Below, one piece after another: positions 9,286-19,042 of a stretch of DNA of 19,042 nt. Numbering within the stretch: position 1 is the first letter of the stretch; every line of letters begins with the position of its first letter. Origin of the DNA: Chloroflexota bacterium (GTDB lineage Bacteria; Chloroflexota; Dehalococcoidia; Lucifugimonadales; UBA826); contig PBDP01000004.1 in assembly GCA_002718095.1 (NCBI GenBank), positions 260,492 to 279,533 of the forward strand. The letters are read 5' to 3'. The position numbers and the translations under genes were made by a program. The notes beneath the pieces are model-generated. The model was not told the DNA's origin and did no database searches. It worked only from the letters and a program-made list of their open reading frames with translations.

Positions 9286-10787
<1,502 letters not shown>

Positions 10788-11014: not shown

Positions 11015-11090
11015 GGGGCTGTAGCTCAGTTGGGAGAGCACCTGCTTTGCAAGCAGGGGGTCAGGAGTTCGAGCCTCCTCAGCTCCACCA
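11015..11090 (+). tRNA. tRNA-Ala (anticodon TGC), CCA encoded
   Basis: Acceptor GGGGCTG (11015-11021) pairs with CAGCTCC (11080-11086) with one G-T wobble; discriminator A11087, then CCA 11088-11090. The anticodon loop TTTGCAA (11046-11052) has TGC at 11048-11050. The D arm (TAGCTCAGTTGGGAGAGCA) and T loop (TTCGAGC) are normal. Alanine tRNA in the 16S spacer is the usual bacterial position, but here no 23S follows. Confidence 0.97.
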
Positions 11091-12346: not shown

Positions 12347-13018
12347 TTAGGACTCACGCTTTGCAGCTGCCCAAATAACTAGCCCAAATGCAGTCTTGTT
12401 AACTAAGTCAGCAAGGTTATAAATCGCGTTCATTGCCTTGACTCCATCTGCTCCCAAGTCGCCAAAATTACCTAGTAAGAATCCTATTGGGTAAATTGCC
12501 CATCCTACTAATACAATCCACCTTATAGCATTAAATGCCATTTGGCTTGAAGTATTACCACTTTCGGCATTAGCTTTTTTAGCTTCTCCAAAGTAGATGA
12601 GATAAATAACGTATAGCCAACCTAACATACCTATTGCAAAGGCTATGTATTCGTTTAGGTCTCCAGTTTCACCTAGATAACCGAAAACAAGCATTACCAA
12701 GGATGCTCCTAGTAATTGCCAGAAAAGGTTCATTTTTACTTTGGTTACTGCGTATAGAATCAAATAGAATTCCACTATTTGTAATGGCACAGTTATTAAC
12801 CAGTCTATGTACCTTAATTCTGTAGGACTTGTTCCTGTATCAATCCATATGCCTCTCATATACAAATAATGCCAAAATGCGATACCAGTAACTAAACCAG
12901 CAACTGTTACAGATGTTCTCCATTTTGGGTCAACATCAAATCTTTCTAAGAAGAAGAAGACAGTAGAAGCGAGCATGGCTGCTGTTGCAATCCAAAATGT
13001 CATTGCTACGAAATCCAT
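12347..13018 (-). CDS. Proteorhodopsin, light-driven proton pump, blue-tuned
   Basis: A 223-residue, seven-helix membrane protein closely resembling gammaproteobacterial proteorhodopsin. Helix B contains GIAFWHYLYMRGIWI (His50, equal to His75). Helix C contains RYIDWLITVPLQIVEFYLIL: Asp72 (Schiff-base counterion, Asp97), Thr76 (Thr101) and Glu83 (proton donor, Glu108), the DTE motif of outward proton pumps. Gln80 corresponds to tuning residue 105; Gln there gives blue-absorbing pigments. Helix G NLADLVNKTAFGLVIW carries the retinal lysine Lys208. Classic proteorhodopsin has about 249 residues with a cleaved signal peptide; this one begins about 25 residues later and has none. The start is firm: AGGAGG precedes the ATG at 13018. 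No carotenoid or retinal (blh) genes lie nearby. It diverges from the DUF1800 gene. Confidence 0.97.
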   Translation of the reverse strand: MDFVAMTFWIATAAMLASTVFFFLERFDVDPKWRTSVTVAGLVTGIAFWHYLYMRGIWIDTGTSPTELRYIDWLITVPLQIVEFYLILYAVTKVKMNLFWQLLGASLVMLVFGYLGETGDLNEYIAFAIGMLGWLYVIYLIYFGEAKKANAESGNTSSQMAFNAIRWIVLVGWAIYPIGFLLGNFGDLGADGVKAMNAIYNLADLVNKTAFGLVIWAAAKRES

Positions 13019-13135: not shown

Positions 13136-13175
13136 CTTGAGAATATGTGTATTTTAGTATTTTGGAGTGAGTTAT

Positions 13176-14624
13176 TTGACGACAGTTGACTATTCAAAAG
13201 ATGTATCTTTATTAGCTCATTTACTTAGAAGGGCAAGTTTTGGTCCAACTCCTGATGAAATGGATTATGCTGTAGAAGTAGGGTACGACAATATCTTAAA
13301 AGAGTTCTTAAATCCTAAAGAGGCGGACCTTGTTCCCCATGACATGATAAGAAGATATCATGTCGCACAATCGGATTTAAGAAATCAGGGTGCGGCCTAT
13401 TGGATTTATAGGATGTTGATGACAAAATCTCCATTACGTGAAAAGATGACATTGTTTTGGCATCGGATATTTGCTACAGGATGGGCTAAATTAATACAAC
13501 ATAGGCCTATTTTAAATCAGATAGATATGTTTCGTACTCATGGTATGGGAAAGTTTGATGATCTTTTGATTGAATTATCTAAAGATCCTTCCATGATTAT
13601 GTGGTTAGATAATCAAGATAATCATGGGCATAATATAAATGAAAATTACGGTAGGGAAATTCTCGAATTATTTTCTATGGGAGTTGGCAATTATACAGAA
13701 GATGATATTAAAGAAACTGCCAGGGCTTTTACTGGTTGGCGTGTAGTTAATCCTGAATATATGTCAATTAAGATGCGTAATAATACAGCTCGTCCGTATG
13801 GATATATGTCATGGCAATTTGAATATGACGACGAAGATCATGATAAAGGACTTAAAACTATTTTGGGTCAAACTGGTAATTGGAATGGTGAAGATGCGGT
13901 AAGGATTATATGTGAACAAGAAGGTACGGCTAAGTATCTTGCAAGGCATTTATATCATTACTTTGTTGAAGATGAATTGCCTGTTCCTCAGTGGCCTCAT
14001 GAGCCTCCAAGAAATCCTGAAGCTATAGATTTAATGGTGCAATCTTATTTTGATAATGACCATAGTATAAAGGCTGTTTTAGGGACTATGTTTACTGCAG
14101 ATTTTTTTAAAGATATACCTGCACGATACGCTCGTATTAAAAGTCCTGCAGAAATGGTTGTTGGGGCATTGAGGTTGGCAGGACCAATTGAATTGCCTTC
14201 AATGGATTTATTAGCAGCTGAAGATGCTTGTACAAATATGGGACAAGCATTATTAAATCCACCTAGTGTAGAAGGTTGGCAAGGTGGGACAGAATGGGTT
14301 AGCACTGGAGCATATGTTCAAAGAGTTAATTTTGTTAGTAAGGTTTTAAGTGACCCTGACAAAATAGGACTCAGGAATATTATTGATAAAATAAAAGAGA
14401 AAGCTTCTTCATCTAATCTTACTCATACACAATTAGTAGATTTTTGTTTAGATATTCTAGGCCCGTTAGATGTTATGGATTCTACGAAATCAAGTCTAAA
14501 TAAATATATTTCTAGATACCCTGATTTGTCATGGTCAGATAAATCAGGATCTGATTCTTTTGATGAAGCAGTGGTATCTCTTATTCAATTGATTGTATCT
14601 TCAATTGAATACCAAAATGCATAA
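13176..14624 (+). CDS. DUF1800-family protein
   Basis: About 482 residues. Typical DUF1800 blocks: LLAHLLRRASFGPTPDEM at the N-terminus, SPLREKMTLFWHRIFATGW at about 88-106, then LSKDPSMIMWLDN, NENYGREILELFSMGVGNYT, ETARAFTGWRV and, near the C-terminus, LLNPPSVEGWQGG. The family's function is unknown; members are usually encoded next to DUF1501 proteins, as here. Many are secreted, but no signal peptide is visible. Start: the reading frame has a GTG at 13167, but it overlaps the ribosome site GGAG (13164-13167). The TTG at 13176, 8 nt after it, is better placed and is used here. First gene of a three-gene operon with NHL and DUF1501. A paralogue is at 18509-19042. Confidence 0.9.
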   Translation: MTTVDYSKDVSLLAHLLRRASFGPTPDEMDYAVEVGYDNILKEFLNPKEADLVPHDMIRRYHVAQSDLRNQGAAYWIYRMLMTKSPLREKMTLFWHRIFATGWAKLIQHRPILNQIDMFRTHGMGKFDDLLIELSKDPSMIMWLDNQDNHGHNINENYGREILELFSMGVGNYTEDDIKETARAFTGWRVVNPEYMSIKMRNNTARPYGYMSWQFEYDDEDHDKGLKTILGQTGNWNGEDAVRIICEQEGTAKYLARHLYHYFVEDELPVPQWPHEPPRNPEAIDLMVQSYFDNDHSIKAVLGTMFTADFFKDIPARYARIKSPAEMVVGALRLAGPIELPSMDLLAAEDACTNMGQALLNPPSVEGWQGGTEWVSTGAYVQRVNFVSKVLSDPDKIGLRNIIDKIKEKASSSNLTHTQLVDFCLDILGPLDVMDSTKSSLNKYISRYPDLSWSDKSGSDSFDEAVVSLIQLIVSSIEYQNA

Positions 14625-14640
14625 TAATGGGGCTCATGAT

Positions 14641-15657
14641 TTGTCAAAGACAACAAAAAAAATGAATTATGTGACTACTGTGGGATTTAATACTGATTTT
14701 GGCGGCAGAGGGTTTGAGCATCCTGCATCATTGGCTATTAGAGATGACGGAGTTATATTCGTAGCTAGCCGAGGGAAAAGAACTTCTAAACAGACAATTG
14801 GTATACAGAGAGTATCTAAAAATCATGAGTTTTTTGGTAAGATTGGTTCTTATGGGCTTGGTGAGTTAGGTCAGATGGTTTGGCCTACTTGTGTGACTTT
14901 AGATTTAGATAATAATCTTTTTTTAGCAGATGAATTTCTCAATAGGATAACTATATTTGATCCTGACGGGGAACCTGTGAAGTATTGGGGTGAAAAAGGT
15001 TCTGCCCCTGGGCAATTTGATCAACCAAGTGGATTACTCGTTAGAGGAGAAACCATTTTAGTTGTAGATTCTAAAAATAACCGTATTCAAGAATATAATT
15101 TAGATGGGGGTTATATTTCTCAATGGGGAGAAGAAGGAGTAGGTCCTGGTCAATTTTCCCTACCTTGGGGAATATGTGAAGATTCTCATGGATACATTTA
15201 TATTGCTGATTGGCGTAATGATAGGATACAAAAATTTACCTCAAAGGGAGAATTTGTTGAATCATTTGGTGAATCAGGATCATCAGAAGGAAAATTTAAT
15301 AGACCTTCTGATGTTGCGGTAGATACAGAAGGGAATATCATTGTTACTGATTGGGCTAACCAGCGATTACAGATACTGGACAGAGAAGGAAATTTTTTAA
15401 TCGAAGAAAGAGGGAAAGGGGGCTTAAATCCTTGGGCCGAAGAATACTTTGAAGCTCAGCAAGATGAAAAAGAGGCTAGAGCCTCTTTTGTTCCTGTTTT
15501 TGATACAGACGTAGATGATCCCTCTGAAATATCGGCCAGAATAGAGCCATATTTTTGGGATCCTGTATCAGTGGAATTAGATTCTGATGATAATATATAC
15601 ATAACTGAGTCAAATAGACATCGATTTCAAGTTTTTGAATTTTGTGAAGGTAATTAA
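14641..15657 (+). CDS. NHL-repeat six-bladed beta-propeller protein (copy a)
   Basis: About 338 residues. Repeated units of the NHL type (hydrophobic strand, G-x-I/V-x-V-A/T-D, N-x-R-I-Q-x-F) occur about six times, for example GYIYIADWRNDRIQKF, GNIIVTDWANQRLQIL and the last NIYITESNRHRFQVFEF. Each is preceded by a G-x-G-x-x-x-G-Q-F turn. This predicts a six-bladed propeller, a binding or scaffold fold. Between the fifth and sixth blades is an insertion of roughly 40 residues (NPWAEEYFEA to IEPYFWDP) shared with the paralogue at 17503-18501. Start: TTG 14641 has GGGG 8 nt before it and aligns with the ATG of the paralogue; ATG 14617, overlapping the DUF1800 stop, is the alternative. The stop directly abuts the DUF1501 start. 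No signal peptide is seen. Confidence 0.85.
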   Translation: MSKTTKKMNYVTTVGFNTDFGGRGFEHPASLAIRDDGVIFVASRGKRTSKQTIGIQRVSKNHEFFGKIGSYGLGELGQMVWPTCVTLDLDNNLFLADEFLNRITIFDPDGEPVKYWGEKGSAPGQFDQPSGLLVRGETILVVDSKNNRIQEYNLDGGYISQWGEEGVGPGQFSLPWGICEDSHGYIYIADWRNDRIQKFTSKGEFVESFGESGSSEGKFNRPSDVAVDTEGNIIVTDWANQRLQILDREGNFLIEERGKGGLNPWAEEYFEAQQDEKEARASFVPVFDTDVDDPSEISARIEPYFWDPVSVELDSDDNIYITESNRHRFQVFEFCEGN

Positions 15658-16779
15658 ATGAAAGATAAAAAATTAGTTGTAATTCAACTTTCTGGCGGTA
15701 ACGATTATCTTAATTGTGTGATTCCTTACAATAATTCTAATTACATTGATAACCGGCCAAATGTCAGAATAAATGAAAATGAAGTTATTCCTATAGATTC
15801 CAATATTGGCTTAAATCCTGTTATGCAACCTATGAAAGATCTGTACGATCAAAATAAGGTGGCTATTTTGCATGGTGTTGGCTATCCTGTCCCCAATCGA
15901 TCACATTTTAGATCTATGGATATATGGCATACTGCAGAGCCTACAAAGGTAGGTACTGAAGGGTGGTTAGGAAATGCTATTAACCAAATGTACCCTAAGC
16001 ATGATAATGTGGTAGCTGCAGTTAATTTTGGAGCAGGATTGCCCCGTGCGCTAGTTGCCCACGGTGCTCCAGTTGCTGCTGTAACGGATTTAGATTCTTA
16101 TGGTTTTTTAAATCACATTAATGAAGAGAATAATAGATTAGATGCTCTTAGTGCTTTTAAAGATATGTATGCACAAGCTATAGGAACAGGTCCGGTTATG
16201 GATTATTTACGTCAGACAGGCCTAGATGCACTTAAAGGTGCCGACATACTTAGTACGGTTACTTCTGAATATTCCTCAGACATTGAATATTCGATGGATA
16301 ATTCATTTTCAAAAGCTATGAAAGGAGCAGCGCAAGTCCTTCAAGCTGATATAGGAACTAGGATTTGTTATACCCAGCATGGAAGCTTTGATGCCCATAC
16401 TAATGGGATAGCTTTACAAGAAGGCTTGTTAAAACATGTTATGGGAGGGATTAGAGATTTTTATGATGATATGAAAGCAGCAAATAAGTCTGATGATGTG
16501 ATTATGTTTGTATTTTCTGAATTTGGCAGACGTGTTAAAGATAATGGTAATGGAACAGATCATGGTTCGGGAGGAGTAGCTTTTGTTATTGGAGATTCTG
16601 TGAAAGGTGGCCAATATAGCGAATATCCTTCTTTGAAATATGAAGATTTATTAGAGGGGGACCTAAGGTTTAATCTTGATTTTCGTAGTGTTTATTCGGA
16701 AATTTTAGAAGATTGGTTAGGAGTAGATGCAATACCTGTTGTTAAAGGTGCGTACGAGAAAGTAGGATTTTTAACTTAG
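15658..16779 (+). CDS. DUF1501-family protein (alkaline-phosphatase/sulfatase-like fold)
   Basis: A 373-residue protein. Characteristic blocks: VVIQLSGGNDYLN (7-19), PVPNRSHFRSMDIWHTAEP (78-94), YTQHGSFDAHTNG (238-250) and FSEFGRRVKDNGNGTDHGSG (286-305). Asp, His and Glu in these blocks are in positions expected for metal ligands of the alkaline phosphatase superfamily to which DUF1501 is related; no reaction is established. Most DUF1501 proteins start with a Tat signal (twin-arginine, then a hydrophobic stretch). This one begins directly with the first core strand, so a cytoplasmic location is inferred. The ATG follows the NHL stop without a gap (TAAATG), and GAAGG lies upstream, showing tight operon coupling. 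It converges with the HTH-like gene, with one base between stops. Confidence 0.92.
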   Translation: MKDKKLVVIQLSGGNDYLNCVIPYNNSNYIDNRPNVRINENEVIPIDSNIGLNPVMQPMKDLYDQNKVAILHGVGYPVPNRSHFRSMDIWHTAEPTKVGTEGWLGNAINQMYPKHDNVVAAVNFGAGLPRALVAHGAPVAAVTDLDSYGFLNHINEENNRLDALSAFKDMYAQAIGTGPVMDYLRQTGLDALKGADILSTVTSEYSSDIEYSMDNSFSKAMKGAAQVLQADIGTRICYTQHGSFDAHTNGIALQEGLLKHVMGGIRDFYDDMKAANKSDDVIMFVFSEFGRRVKDNGNGTDHGSGGVAFVIGDSVKGGQYSEYPSLKYEDLLEGDLRFNLDFRSVYSEILEDWLGVDAIPVVKGAYEKVGFLT

Positions 16780-16780
16780 A

Positions 16781-17398
16781 TTAATCAATTTTTTGAAAGC
16801 TTGAATATCCTCTAACATTACGTGGTCTTGGTGTTTCAAGTGTACTATTGCTAGAGATATCTGACATTTCATGATCTTCTTTATGGTTGTTGTCCTCAGA
16901 AGAATTATTTGTTACTGTTCCGGCTGTTATACCTGTTGTATCCCGTCTATTTGAAAGCATTTGTTCGTCTAATGATGCCAAACTTTCTGATTTTATTCCA
17001 AATGCTGTCTTTATTTCGTATTCTTCATACTTTTTAGCCCACAACATAAGTTTTTCATCAGACCATCCTCCAATTTGATTTAAACGCCACCACCATTTAA
17101 TTAATCTTCTACTGGGCATGTGACCTTCCCAGTCATGGAAATAACCAATCCCTCTTCCTATTTCCCAGCCCATACCGTAATCGTCTAAATCATGCCATTG
17201 GATACTTTGGGAATTTTCTTTTTCTTCATCGGATAATTCTTTAAATTTCTTTATCCAATCACCTAAAGTACGCAATTTTATAGAATTTGATCTATAAATC
17301 AAATTAAGTTTTTCTAGAATTTGAGCTTGTTTGTACCCCGCAGTGTATAATCTGTACGCTTCTACAAATTGTTCTGAATCACTAATACCTCTAGGCAT
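16781..17398 (-). CDS. Unidentified protein with N-terminal HTH-like region
   Basis: A 205-residue soluble protein I do not recognise. Residues about 8-55 (EQFVEAYRLYTAGYKQAQIL, then LRTLGDWIKKFKEL) look like a helix-turn-helix of the type that opens transposases, terminase small subunits and some regulators. The middle (about 66-135) is rich in tryptophan and glycine (GMGWEIGRGIGYFHDWEGHM, RRLIKWWWRLNQIGGWSD). The tail from about 140 is Ser/Asn/Asp/Glu-rich and probably disordered. No transposase catalytic motif is seen. AGGA precedes the ATG, followed by a run of eight T. It sits exactly between the two mirror-image NHL/DUF1800 cassettes, so it could be their regulator; this is only positional inference. 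Confidence 0.6.
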   Translation of the reverse strand: MPRGISDSEQFVEAYRLYTAGYKQAQILEKLNLIYRSNSIKLRTLGDWIKKFKELSDEEKENSQSIQWHDLDDYGMGWEIGRGIGYFHDWEGHMPSRRLIKWWWRLNQIGGWSDEKLMLWAKKYEEYEIKTAFGIKSESLASLDEQMLSNRRDTTGITAGTVTNNSSEDNNHKEDHEMSDISSNSTLETPRPRNVRGYSSFQKID

Positions 17399-17428
17399 AA
17401 AAAAAATCCTATATAGTGCATTTCACAT

Positions 17429-17458
17429 ATTATAAACTGCATTATACAGTAAATACAA
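17429..17458 (-). promoter_or_regulatory. Weak candidate promoter of the HTH-like gene
   Basis: On the minus strand TATAAT (17434-17429) lies about 30 nt before the start, with a poor -35 (TTGTAT, 17458-17453) at 18 nt. A second TATAAT is at 17446-17441. The 104-bp gap after the NHL gene is otherwise plain A/T-rich sequence with no evident terminator. Confidence 0.3.
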
Positions 17459-17502
17459 GATATTAATATGCTTTTAGGTATACAATAGGTGCATTAAAAA
17501 TA

Positions 17503-18501
17503 TTATATGTTGTATATTTGAATTCTATGCCTTGAAGACTCAATTACATATAATTTTGAGTTATTATCAATTACTACAGAGGAAGGTCCCCAAAAATAAG
17601 CTTCTATTTGAGTTGATATTAAATATGGTGTATTAAAATGTTTAGGCAAATCTGGTTTTAGATTGGATATCTCACGTTGTGTAGATTCATCTGGATTAGC
17701 ATCTAAGAATTCTTGTGCCCATTTTGATAATGTTGCTTCTCCACGTAAGGATTGAACGTGGCCTCCCTCGGGAGAATAAATTTTAACGGATTCATTACCC
17801 CAATCGGCAACATATACGTATCCATCTTTGTCAGCTGCAGCTTTTGCGGGTTTATTTAGAGAACCCTCATTTTTATTAGGCCCTCCTATTACACTTATAA
17901 AGGATCCGTTAGTATCAAATTTTTGTATTCGATCATTACCCCAATCAGTGACATATACATATCCATCCAATCCAACTGATATTCCCCACGGATGATCAAA
18001 TTGGGATTTTTTTTCACCGTGCTCTCCCCAGGTGGTAATGAAATCTCCATTTAGGGAGAATTTTTGAATTCTATGGTTATATTGATCTACAACATAAACA
18101 TTATCTTCCATATCAACGGTAATTCCAGATGGACCATTTAACTGTCCTGCGTCACTACCATGGTTTCCCCAATTAGATAAATAAGTTCCATCCTCTGAGA
18201 ACTTTGAAATCCTATTGTGGTGTTCGTCACATACGAGAATTGTTCCTGTTGAACTACTTGTAATACCTGTTGGTAACCAAAATTGACCATCTCCATGACC
18301 ATATGTTCCAAATTCGTTTATATAATCTTCTTTATAATTACAGACCCCAACTCTAGCAAAGACAGGATGTTTATTTAAGACATAAAACTTATCGTTGAAT
18401 ATTGCCATGTCTACTGGGTGAGCAAACCCGCGACCTAACGGATTGTTGTTAGTTATGCCTATAGTTTTGTTGTAAGTTGCCTTTTCGATTTGAGTAACCA
18501 T
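17503..18501 (-). CDS. NHL-repeat six-bladed beta-propeller protein (copy b)
   Basis: About 332 residues, paralogous to copy a over its whole length. Corresponding pieces: GRGFAHPVDMAI (GRGFEHPASLAI in a), GYVYVTDWGNDRIQKF (GYIYIADWRNDRIQKF) and the last blade KLYVIESSRHRIQIYNI. Six NHL blades are predicted. The same insertion before the last blade is present (SKWAQEFLDA to IEAYFWGP), so the two form one specific subfamily. Start: the ATG at 18501 lies 7 nt after the DUF1800b stop and aligns with copy a; a longer frame from TTG 18540 overlaps that gene and is less likely. No signal peptide or strong ribosome site is seen, so coupling to DUF1800b is likely. Unlike copy a, no DUF1501 follows; the next gene is the HTH-like one. 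Confidence 0.85.
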   Translation of the reverse strand: MVTQIEKATYNKTIGITNNNPLGRGFAHPVDMAIFNDKFYVLNKHPVFARVGVCNYKEDYINEFGTYGHGDGQFWLPTGITSSSTGTILVCDEHHNRISKFSEDGTYLSNWGNHGSDAGQLNGPSGITVDMEDNVYVVDQYNHRIQKFSLNGDFITTWGEHGEKKSQFDHPWGISVGLDGYVYVTDWGNDRIQKFDTNGSFISVIGGPNKNEGSLNKPAKAAADKDGYVYVADWGNESVKIYSPEGGHVQSLRGEATLSKWAQEFLDANPDESTQREISNLKPDLPKHFNTPYLISTQIEAYFWGPSSVVIDNNSKLYVIESSRHRIQIYNI

Positions 18502-18508
18502 GGAAAGA

Positions 18509-19042
18509 TTACACTCTTTGATATTCTTTTGAAGAGGCAATAAGACCTAATATCTCGGATATTCTTTCTTCAGCATTTTTTCTGTCTGATGTCGATGCTT
18601 CCCCAAATATTATTGGGCCTTTCTTTTTTGAATGTTTAACAATTGCGTTTTTTGTAGATTCTTCAATGTCAGGATCCAATATCCCCATCAAATTAAAGCA
18701 CATATTTACTGCGTCATCGGGGTCCAATTCTGCGTTAAAAGCTAAGCGGTTAGTAATATCTTTTACTTCTGGAGAATTAGTATTACTCCAAACTTTATGG
18801 GAGAAGTTTACTCTTTCTACTATAGAACCACTATTTATCCATTCGGCACCTTCATGCCACCCTTCAACTGAAGGGGGATTCAGTAGGGTTTGACCCATAT
18901 AGGCTATTACACTTTCTGCCTCATTCATTAATAGTGTGGGCTTAGTTATTGTATTGCTAACTCGTAAACACCCGGCGACATATTCAGCAGGACATTTGAC
19001 TCTTTCATATGTAGATTCTTTAAAGAAATCAGATTTAAATAA
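18509..19042 (-). CDS. DUF1800-family protein, C-terminal part (5' end outside window)
   Basis: The reading frame is open to the window edge, giving 177 residues. It starts with LFKSDFFKEST and CPAEYVAGCLRVSN, which correspond to MFTADFFKDIP and SPAEMVVGALRLAG in DUF1800a, and continues with YMGQTLLNPPSVEGWHEGAE and INSGSIVERVNFSHKV (copy a: NMGQALLNPPSVEGWQGGTE and VSTGAYVQRVNFVSKV). A methionine at 18928 is internal, not a start. It precedes NHL copy b by 7 nt, repeating the DUF1800-NHL order of the plus-strand operon. It is not truncated at its C-terminus: it ends SSKEYQRV where copy a ends SSIEYQNA. The N-terminal two thirds lie to the right of the window. Confidence 0.9.
   Translation of the reverse strand, partial: LFKSDFFKESTYERVKCPAEYVAGCLRVSNTITKPTLLMNEAESVIAYMGQTLLNPPSVEGWHEGAEWINSGSIVERVNFSHKVWSNTNSPEVKDITNRLAFNAELDPDDAVNMCFNLMGILDPDIEESTKNAIVKHSKKKGPIIFGEASTSDRKNAEERISEILGLIASSKEYQRV

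Follow-up and report, generated by a model that had tools for sequence, protein, structure and literature searches.

The window analysed here is a stretch of 19,042 nucleotides from a Chloroflexota bacterium of the class Dehalococcoidia (assembly GCA_002718095.1, contig PBDP01000004.1, positions 260,492 to 279,533 of the forward strand), and its right-hand part carries two gene cassettes, here called a and b, that combine DUF1800 and DUF1501 proteins with an NHL beta-propeller. Cassette a lies on the plus strand. DUF1800a (13167-14624, 485 aa) matches Pfam PF08811 with an E value of 1.7e-100 and 337.6 bits, against a gathering cut-off of 26.1, over profile positions 1-418 of 419; it could begin at GTG 13167 or at TTG 13176, the latter with GGAG 8 nt upstream. 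NHLa follows (14593-15657, 354 aa, Pfam NHL E 7.9e-30), with a likely start at the ATG at 14617 that overlaps the end of DUF1800a, and then DUF1501a (15658-16779, 373 aa; PF07394 with E 1.4e-20 and 74.3 bits against a gathering cut-off of 27), a predicted metallohydrolase of the alkaline phosphatase superfamily. Neither DUF1800a nor DUF1501a has a signal peptide. The minus strand carries NHLb (17503-18540, Pfam NHL E 2.7e-36, likely start ATG near 18501) and the C-terminal 177 aa of DUF1800b (18509-19042, PF08811 E 1.5e-15 for this part), whose complete gene runs past the right edge of the window to C4:280460. The NHL profile PF01436 exceeds its gathering score in both propellers, with 101.8 bits in three stretches of NHLa and 122.2 bits in five of NHLb. 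These Pfam matches bear out the gene calls, tight spacing and convergence at 16780 described in an earlier note on this DNA.

The same note had described DUF1501 as single in its view, perhaps shared by two alternative DUF1800/NHL pairs, and had proposed extending the contig past 19042 to look for a second one before DUF1800b. Such a gene is present. DUF1501b (C4:280481-281614, outside the window) directly precedes DUF1800b on the same strand with a gap of 20 nt, so the single-DUF1501 view fails, and the sharing of one DUF1501 by both pairs is not borne out either. Cassettes a and b each hold a DUF1800 and a DUF1501 gene in the same orientation, with NHL intervening in a; the gene order is DUF1800-NHL-DUF1501 in cassette a and DUF1501-DUF1800-NHL in cassette b. 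The same order had been noted for the DUF1800 and NHL genes of both sets, and DUF1800 is indeed followed by NHL in each; the placement of DUF1501 differs.

The source genome, from SAR202 (1.44 Mb in 10 contigs, 94.6% complete), contains nine DUF1800 genes, eight intact and one broken into two open reading frames (ORFs), nearly all of them in similar cassettes. Its DUF1501 genes number five and its NHL propellers 11, each counted as distinct. Eight of the propeller genes stand in cassettes with DUF1800, while three are solitary and more distant. With 11 NHL genes among about 1,450 genes, roughly 0.1 would be expected by chance beside eight DUF1800 genes, whereas 8/8 were observed to be adjacent or one gene away. 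The convergent layout in the window is real, but it is a single instance among the eight intact DUF1800 genes and the broken copy. DUF1800a and DUF1800b share 47-48% identity and NHLa and NHLb 38%, no closer than to the other cassettes of the genome; NHL identity among the paralogous cassettes is about 27-43%. DUF1800a is 66-70% identical to counterparts in other genera, and genomes of SAR202 and of other Dehalococcoidia/Chloroflexi contain its closest named relatives.

The start of contig C6 (L012:1-4059) repeats the end of contig C3 (end of L016) with few differences. These contigs probably join at the repeated end, and genes in the overlap were counted once. An aminotransferase gene adjoins the C6/C3 cassette. 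The split DUF1800 copy on contig C1 (L014:8157-9426, minus strand) lies in a stretch with ambiguous bases and represents either a decayed gene or an assembly error. The youngest duplication seen in the genome is a tandem DUF1800 pair (L013:7800-10677, minus strand), 67% identical, which has just one NHL gene. One of the solitary, more distant propeller genes adjoins a DUF3500 gene (L018:5376-7323, minus strand), making another pair of a propeller and a domain of unknown function (DUF).

Neighbourhoods were fetched from many of 60 relatives and from 80 named loci. DUF1800 is present in 42 of the 60 relatives, with up to 18 genes per genome. The DUF1800 genes were classed by score against a profile of the copies in the window genome, with those above 450 bits termed cassette-type and low-scoring ones canonical-type, after the known, exported DUF1800-DUF1501 pair. 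The scores are bimodal, none falling between 350 and 450 bits; the cut was set after this gap had been seen, and because SAR202 copies went into the profile the score is in part a measure of kinship. NHL and leader traits played no part in setting the cut. Linkage was counted by domain coordinates, since over-long ORFs in GC-rich genomes hide neighbouring matches. An NHL gene on the same strand lies within 2.5 kb of 165 of the 169 cassette-type DUF1800 genes (88/96 in a smaller set), compared with none of the 21 canonical loci that have enough flank to show a third gene. At the canonical loci L233-L262 the flanks of only 1.5 kb might miss a third gene beyond DUF1501, and the negative rests on those 21. 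The proposal that NHL is a fixed partner of DUF1800 is in this way strongly supported for the cassette type.

DUF1501 was found within 2.5 kb of 108 of the 169 cassette-type genes, and 42 of the 43 canonical-type DUF1800 genes are paired with it. Leaderless DUF1800-DUF1501-NHL cassettes also occur in G101 and G124, two genomes from other families of Chloroflexota, and G124 has in addition a canonical pair of the twin-arginine translocation (Tat) type. In the order to which the window genome belongs, G033, G051 and G056 have a canonical pair without NHL. Beyond Chloroflexota, the loci seen were limited to a few on plasmids, each of them canonical. Among the genes neighbouring the cassettes there is no constant member beyond DUF1800, NHL and DUF1501, and the PADLOC-DB models of anti-phage defence gave no match at E 0.01, a negative that applies to described systems only.

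The two forms also differ at their N-termini. Cassette DUF1501 proteins have 13-14 residues before the GGND motif, in comparison with about 56 in canonical ones. A hydrophobicity cut-off of 2.0 did not tell exported proteins apart from the rest; the leader counts made in its stead found a hydrophobic N-terminal stretch in 0/108 cassette and 23/29 canonical DUF1501 sequences; a Tat-like RR motif occurs in 24/29 of the latter. DUF1800 gave the same contrast, with a hydrophobic N-terminus in 1/180 cassette and 12/23 canonical proteins. Without the leader seen in the canonical pair, the proteins of the cassettes are probably cytoplasmic.

Gene order behaves as a clade trait in a tree of 125 DUF1800 proteins, needing 19 changes as opposed to 53.5 for shuffled labels, with 0/200 shuffles as low. 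DUF1800a falls in the DUF1800-NHL-DUF1501 clade and DUF1800b in the DUF1501-DUF1800-NHL clade, and constraining the two as sisters costs 292 log-likelihood units (quick tree, two-tree test). The cassettes therefore did not arise by the mirror-image duplication formerly suggested for them: they belong to different old clades, have different gene orders, and their sister tree is rejected. In G005, the sole genome in which counterparts of both a and b were seen, these counterparts are located on different contigs, and the convergent pairing may accordingly be local to the window genome.

Pairwise identities of DUF1800 and of the neighbouring NHL proteins are correlated (r = 0.88, 106 pairs). When partners were shuffled only within each genome, so that species history was preserved, the DUF1800-NHL correlation of 0.93 stood against a mean of 0.285 and a maximum of 0.654 in 1000 shuffles, and the DUF1800-DUF1501 correlation of 0.938 against a mean of 0.548 and a maximum of 0.778. 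As both exceed the within-genome shuffles, the cassettes have been inherited as matched units with long-term linkage, and DUF1800 and its own NHL share a history far beyond that of a common genome. Mean identity is 38% for NHL, 51% for DUF1800 and 56% for DUF1501; the faster divergence of NHL is what would be expected of a recognition module.

The model of DUF1501a (predicted local distance difference test, pLDDT, 89.7) matches the alkaline phosphatase superfamily end to end. Against the nucleotide pyrophosphatase/phosphodiesterase (NPP) 7mw8 it gave a VIA Z of 19.8 (DALI-scale) with a root-mean-square deviation of 3.1 over 238 aligned residues, and Foldseek returned a probability of 1.00 to sulfatases, LtaS and EptC. 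Twelve residues (D16, S82, H83, D245, H247, E288, R291, N296, D301, H302, D341 and R343) are invariant in 115/115 cassette sequences and near-invariant in 36 canonical ones. Judged by position in the chain rather than by residue-level superposition, they would suit a metal site with a serine as nucleophile, the candidates being D16, S82, D245, H247, D301, H302 and D341. The cassette type alone has a constant R85, three positions beyond S82, and a constant D295 and G306 in the surroundings of the DHG motif, which plausibly points to another substrate.

The DUF1800a model is of similar quality (pLDDT 87.9, predicted template modelling score 0.90), yet searches of the PDB gave no convincing match (Foldseek best E 0.98, VIA best Z 4.8), which does not in itself prove a new fold. 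Its N-terminus (window 13203-13415, about residues 13-83) has weak profile similarity to phycobilisome-complex chains, mostly linker proteins, which make up 5/8 of the PDB profile matches, the best at E 0.004. An invariant polar core (N158, E159, N160, R163, E164, E167, H225, D226 and R386) is common to the canonical family, while D224, E369 and H153 are cassette-specific; taken together, these residues suggest an active or binding site. Among solved NHL propellers the relatives of NHLa are TRIM71, Brat and PknD.

Between the two cassettes lies an ORF on the minus strand (16781-17398, 205 aa) resembling helix-turn-helix (HTH) proteins, with no Pfam family above cut-off, a sub-threshold match to HTH_48 (E 0.011) and no match in PHROG or PADLOC. 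Its family, which has a conserved tryptophan-rich motif (KWWWR-like), occurs in 16 of the 60 genomes; most members of the GTDB family to which the window genome belongs carry 1-4 copies. A regulatory role for the cassettes had been suggested for it, but genes for DUF1800, NHL and DUF1501 are all absent within 1.5 kb of the 19 other fetched loci of this multicopy family, and we judge it a chance neighbour outside the cassette. On the other side, a proteorhodopsin gene (12347-13018, minus strand) immediately precedes cassette a and is transcribed away from it. A 16S rRNA gene (9286-10787) is followed by tRNA-Ala (11015-11090), while 23S and 5S genes are absent from the remainder of the window, so that the rRNA operon looks split. 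The 16S rRNA gene and the proteorhodopsin fit the epipelagic SAR202 groups I/II, for which rhodopsins are reported in PMC6946804.

Copy numbers across 40 families, one genome each, offer a further indication of role. DUF1800 copy number follows that of DUF1501 (rho 0.97), of sulfatases (rho 0.74, or 0.72 after genome size) and of the enolase-superfamily domain MR_MLE_C (rho 0.65, or 0.60 after genome size). Sulfatases and enolase-superfamily enzymes have been proposed to serve the breakdown of algal and sugar-derived matter (PMC6946804 and PMC10444878). In the window genome three tandem sulfatase genes adjoin the C1 DUF1800-NHL cassette (L014:1950-6931, plus strand), and their N-termini leave no room for a leader. 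The leaderless proteins, the DUF1501 fold and motifs, the tracking of copy numbers and the adjoining sulfatases favour intracellular catabolic ester hydrolysis. We therefore put forward, tentatively but as a real prospect, that the cassettes are a lineage-expanded family of intracellular, probably catabolic, ester-hydrolase units, kin to the exported DUF1800-DUF1501 pair and equipped with a dedicated NHL propeller. On this proposal DUF1800, NHL and DUF1501 would form a cytoplasmic complex in which DUF1501 would hydrolyse a phosphate or sulfate ester using metal and S82 as the nucleophilic serine. The conserved helical protein DUF1800, for which no solved relative was found, would supply a second catalytic or structural function, and the faster-diverging propeller would hold or select the substrate or dock a partner. 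The roughly one third of cassettes without a nearby DUF1501 might dispense with it or rely on one from another place in the genome. Paralogous cassettes would divide a range of imported organic compounds among themselves, as is thought for the SAR202 sulfatases and enolase-superfamily enzymes.

Several points weigh against this proposal. DUF1501 was not found near about 36% of the cassettes, and the recurring neighbours (coenzyme A transferases, short-chain dehydrogenases/reductases, the enolase superfamily) belong to families that seem abundant in SAR202 anyway and give no pointer to a substrate. The correlation of copy numbers would also be expected if the families merely mark one SAR202 life style, and co-inheritance of adjacent genes can yield correlated trees without a complex. 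The probable cytoplasmic location is read solely from the missing leaders; substrate, activity and physical contact are matters that we infer. A more ambitious version is possible but rather unlikely: DUF1800, with a fold unseen in solved structures, would join NHL and DUF1501 in a modular cytoplasmic machine with up to 18 substrate-specific versions that process marine dissolved organic matter. If true, this would be a major undescribed catabolic system of an abundant ocean lineage.

The serious rival is biosynthesis. The cassettes would then work at the cytoplasmic side to make or alter a precursor of a polysaccharide or lipid, a role that the canonical pair may have near chitin synthase genes, with DUF1501 as a transferase or phosphatase on activated sugars or lipids. 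In several bacteria the canonical DUF1800-DUF1501 genes are neighbours of genes for chitin synthase and a sugar epimerase (PMC5122149), lipoteichoic acid synthase and phosphoethanolamine transferases are also among the proteins that the DUF1501 fold resembles, and the aminotransferase next to the C6/C3 cassette would be in keeping. However, up to 18 diverged copies in genomes of 1.2-3.7 Mb suit a range of substrates better than one envelope pathway, copy number follows the sulfatases and enolase-superfamily enzymes, and no family is a constant neighbour; we regard biosynthesis as unlikely, though far from negligible. A role in sensing or regulation is less probable still. The propeller would bind a ligand or nucleic acid and DUF1501 would be a signalling phosphodiesterase, as might be suggested by the propellers that NHLa matches and by the resemblance of DUF1501 to nucleotide-cleaving NPP/ENPP1. 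The propellers of TRIM71 and Brat are RNA-binding, and PknD has one that serves as its sensor domain. Yet the cassette has no DNA-binding or membrane-linked output domain, its HTH-like neighbour is unlinked elsewhere, and the occurrence of these invariant DUF1501 motifs in an exported pair too suits an enzyme better. The mirror-image duplication, with two DUF1800/NHL pairs sharing one DUF1501 under an HTH-like regulator, accounts for the head-on convergence of pairs that both keep DUF1800 before NHL, but the tree and the gene just outside the window already refute the duplication and the single DUF1501, its regulator is unlinked in relatives, and we give it almost no weight.

The preferred reading, of intracellular ester-hydrolase cassettes, bears on an abundant group of organisms. 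SAR202 makes up 10-30% of deep-sea planktonic prokaryotes and is thought to oxidise resistant organic matter (PMC10444878). Assignments of enzymes to substrates are largely lacking in SAR202, and the cassettes are among its most expanded gene sets. As units that are specific in their partners, probably located inside the cell and different from the exported pair, they would make of two widespread DUFs an enzyme system open to experimental test. In the open-licence literature, few papers on DUF1800 or DUF1501 and no function for them were found, nor any description of the cassette, its partner specificity or the absence of leaders. We take COG3391 to be the NHL propeller of the cassettes. Saw et al. 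2020 (PMC6946804) list it with COG4102 and COG5267 among the 50 most abundant SAR202 COGs, in a passage that terms them uncharacterized conserved proteins; the passages concerned deal with the same families but say nothing of a cassette, of specific partners, of absent export signals or of the DUF1501 fold.

Among known systems, the alkaline phosphatase superfamily (NPP phosphodiesterases, sulfatases, LtaS and EptC) has a fold and motifs similar to those of DUF1501, at an identity of about 10-16%. The propellers of TRIM71, Brat, PknD and PAL have NHL repeats in common with the cassette propeller, which is here a stand-alone bacterial protein tied to DUF1800. The nearest counterpart is the canonical DUF1800-DUF1501 pair (PF08811/PF07394; COG5267/COG4102), as found at the Chloroflexota loci L233-L262 and the plasmid loci L228-L230. 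Both systems have the two families adjacent and co-oriented, with the same DUF1501 motifs and DUF1800 core residues. Canonical pairs mostly carry Tat or Sec leaders, occur mostly in one copy with DUF1800 before DUF1501, and have no NHL, whereas the cassettes are leaderless, have an NHL partner, exist in many copies and several gene orders, and possess residues of their own. This contrast in leader, propeller and form-specific residues provides direct handles for mutagenesis and structural work.

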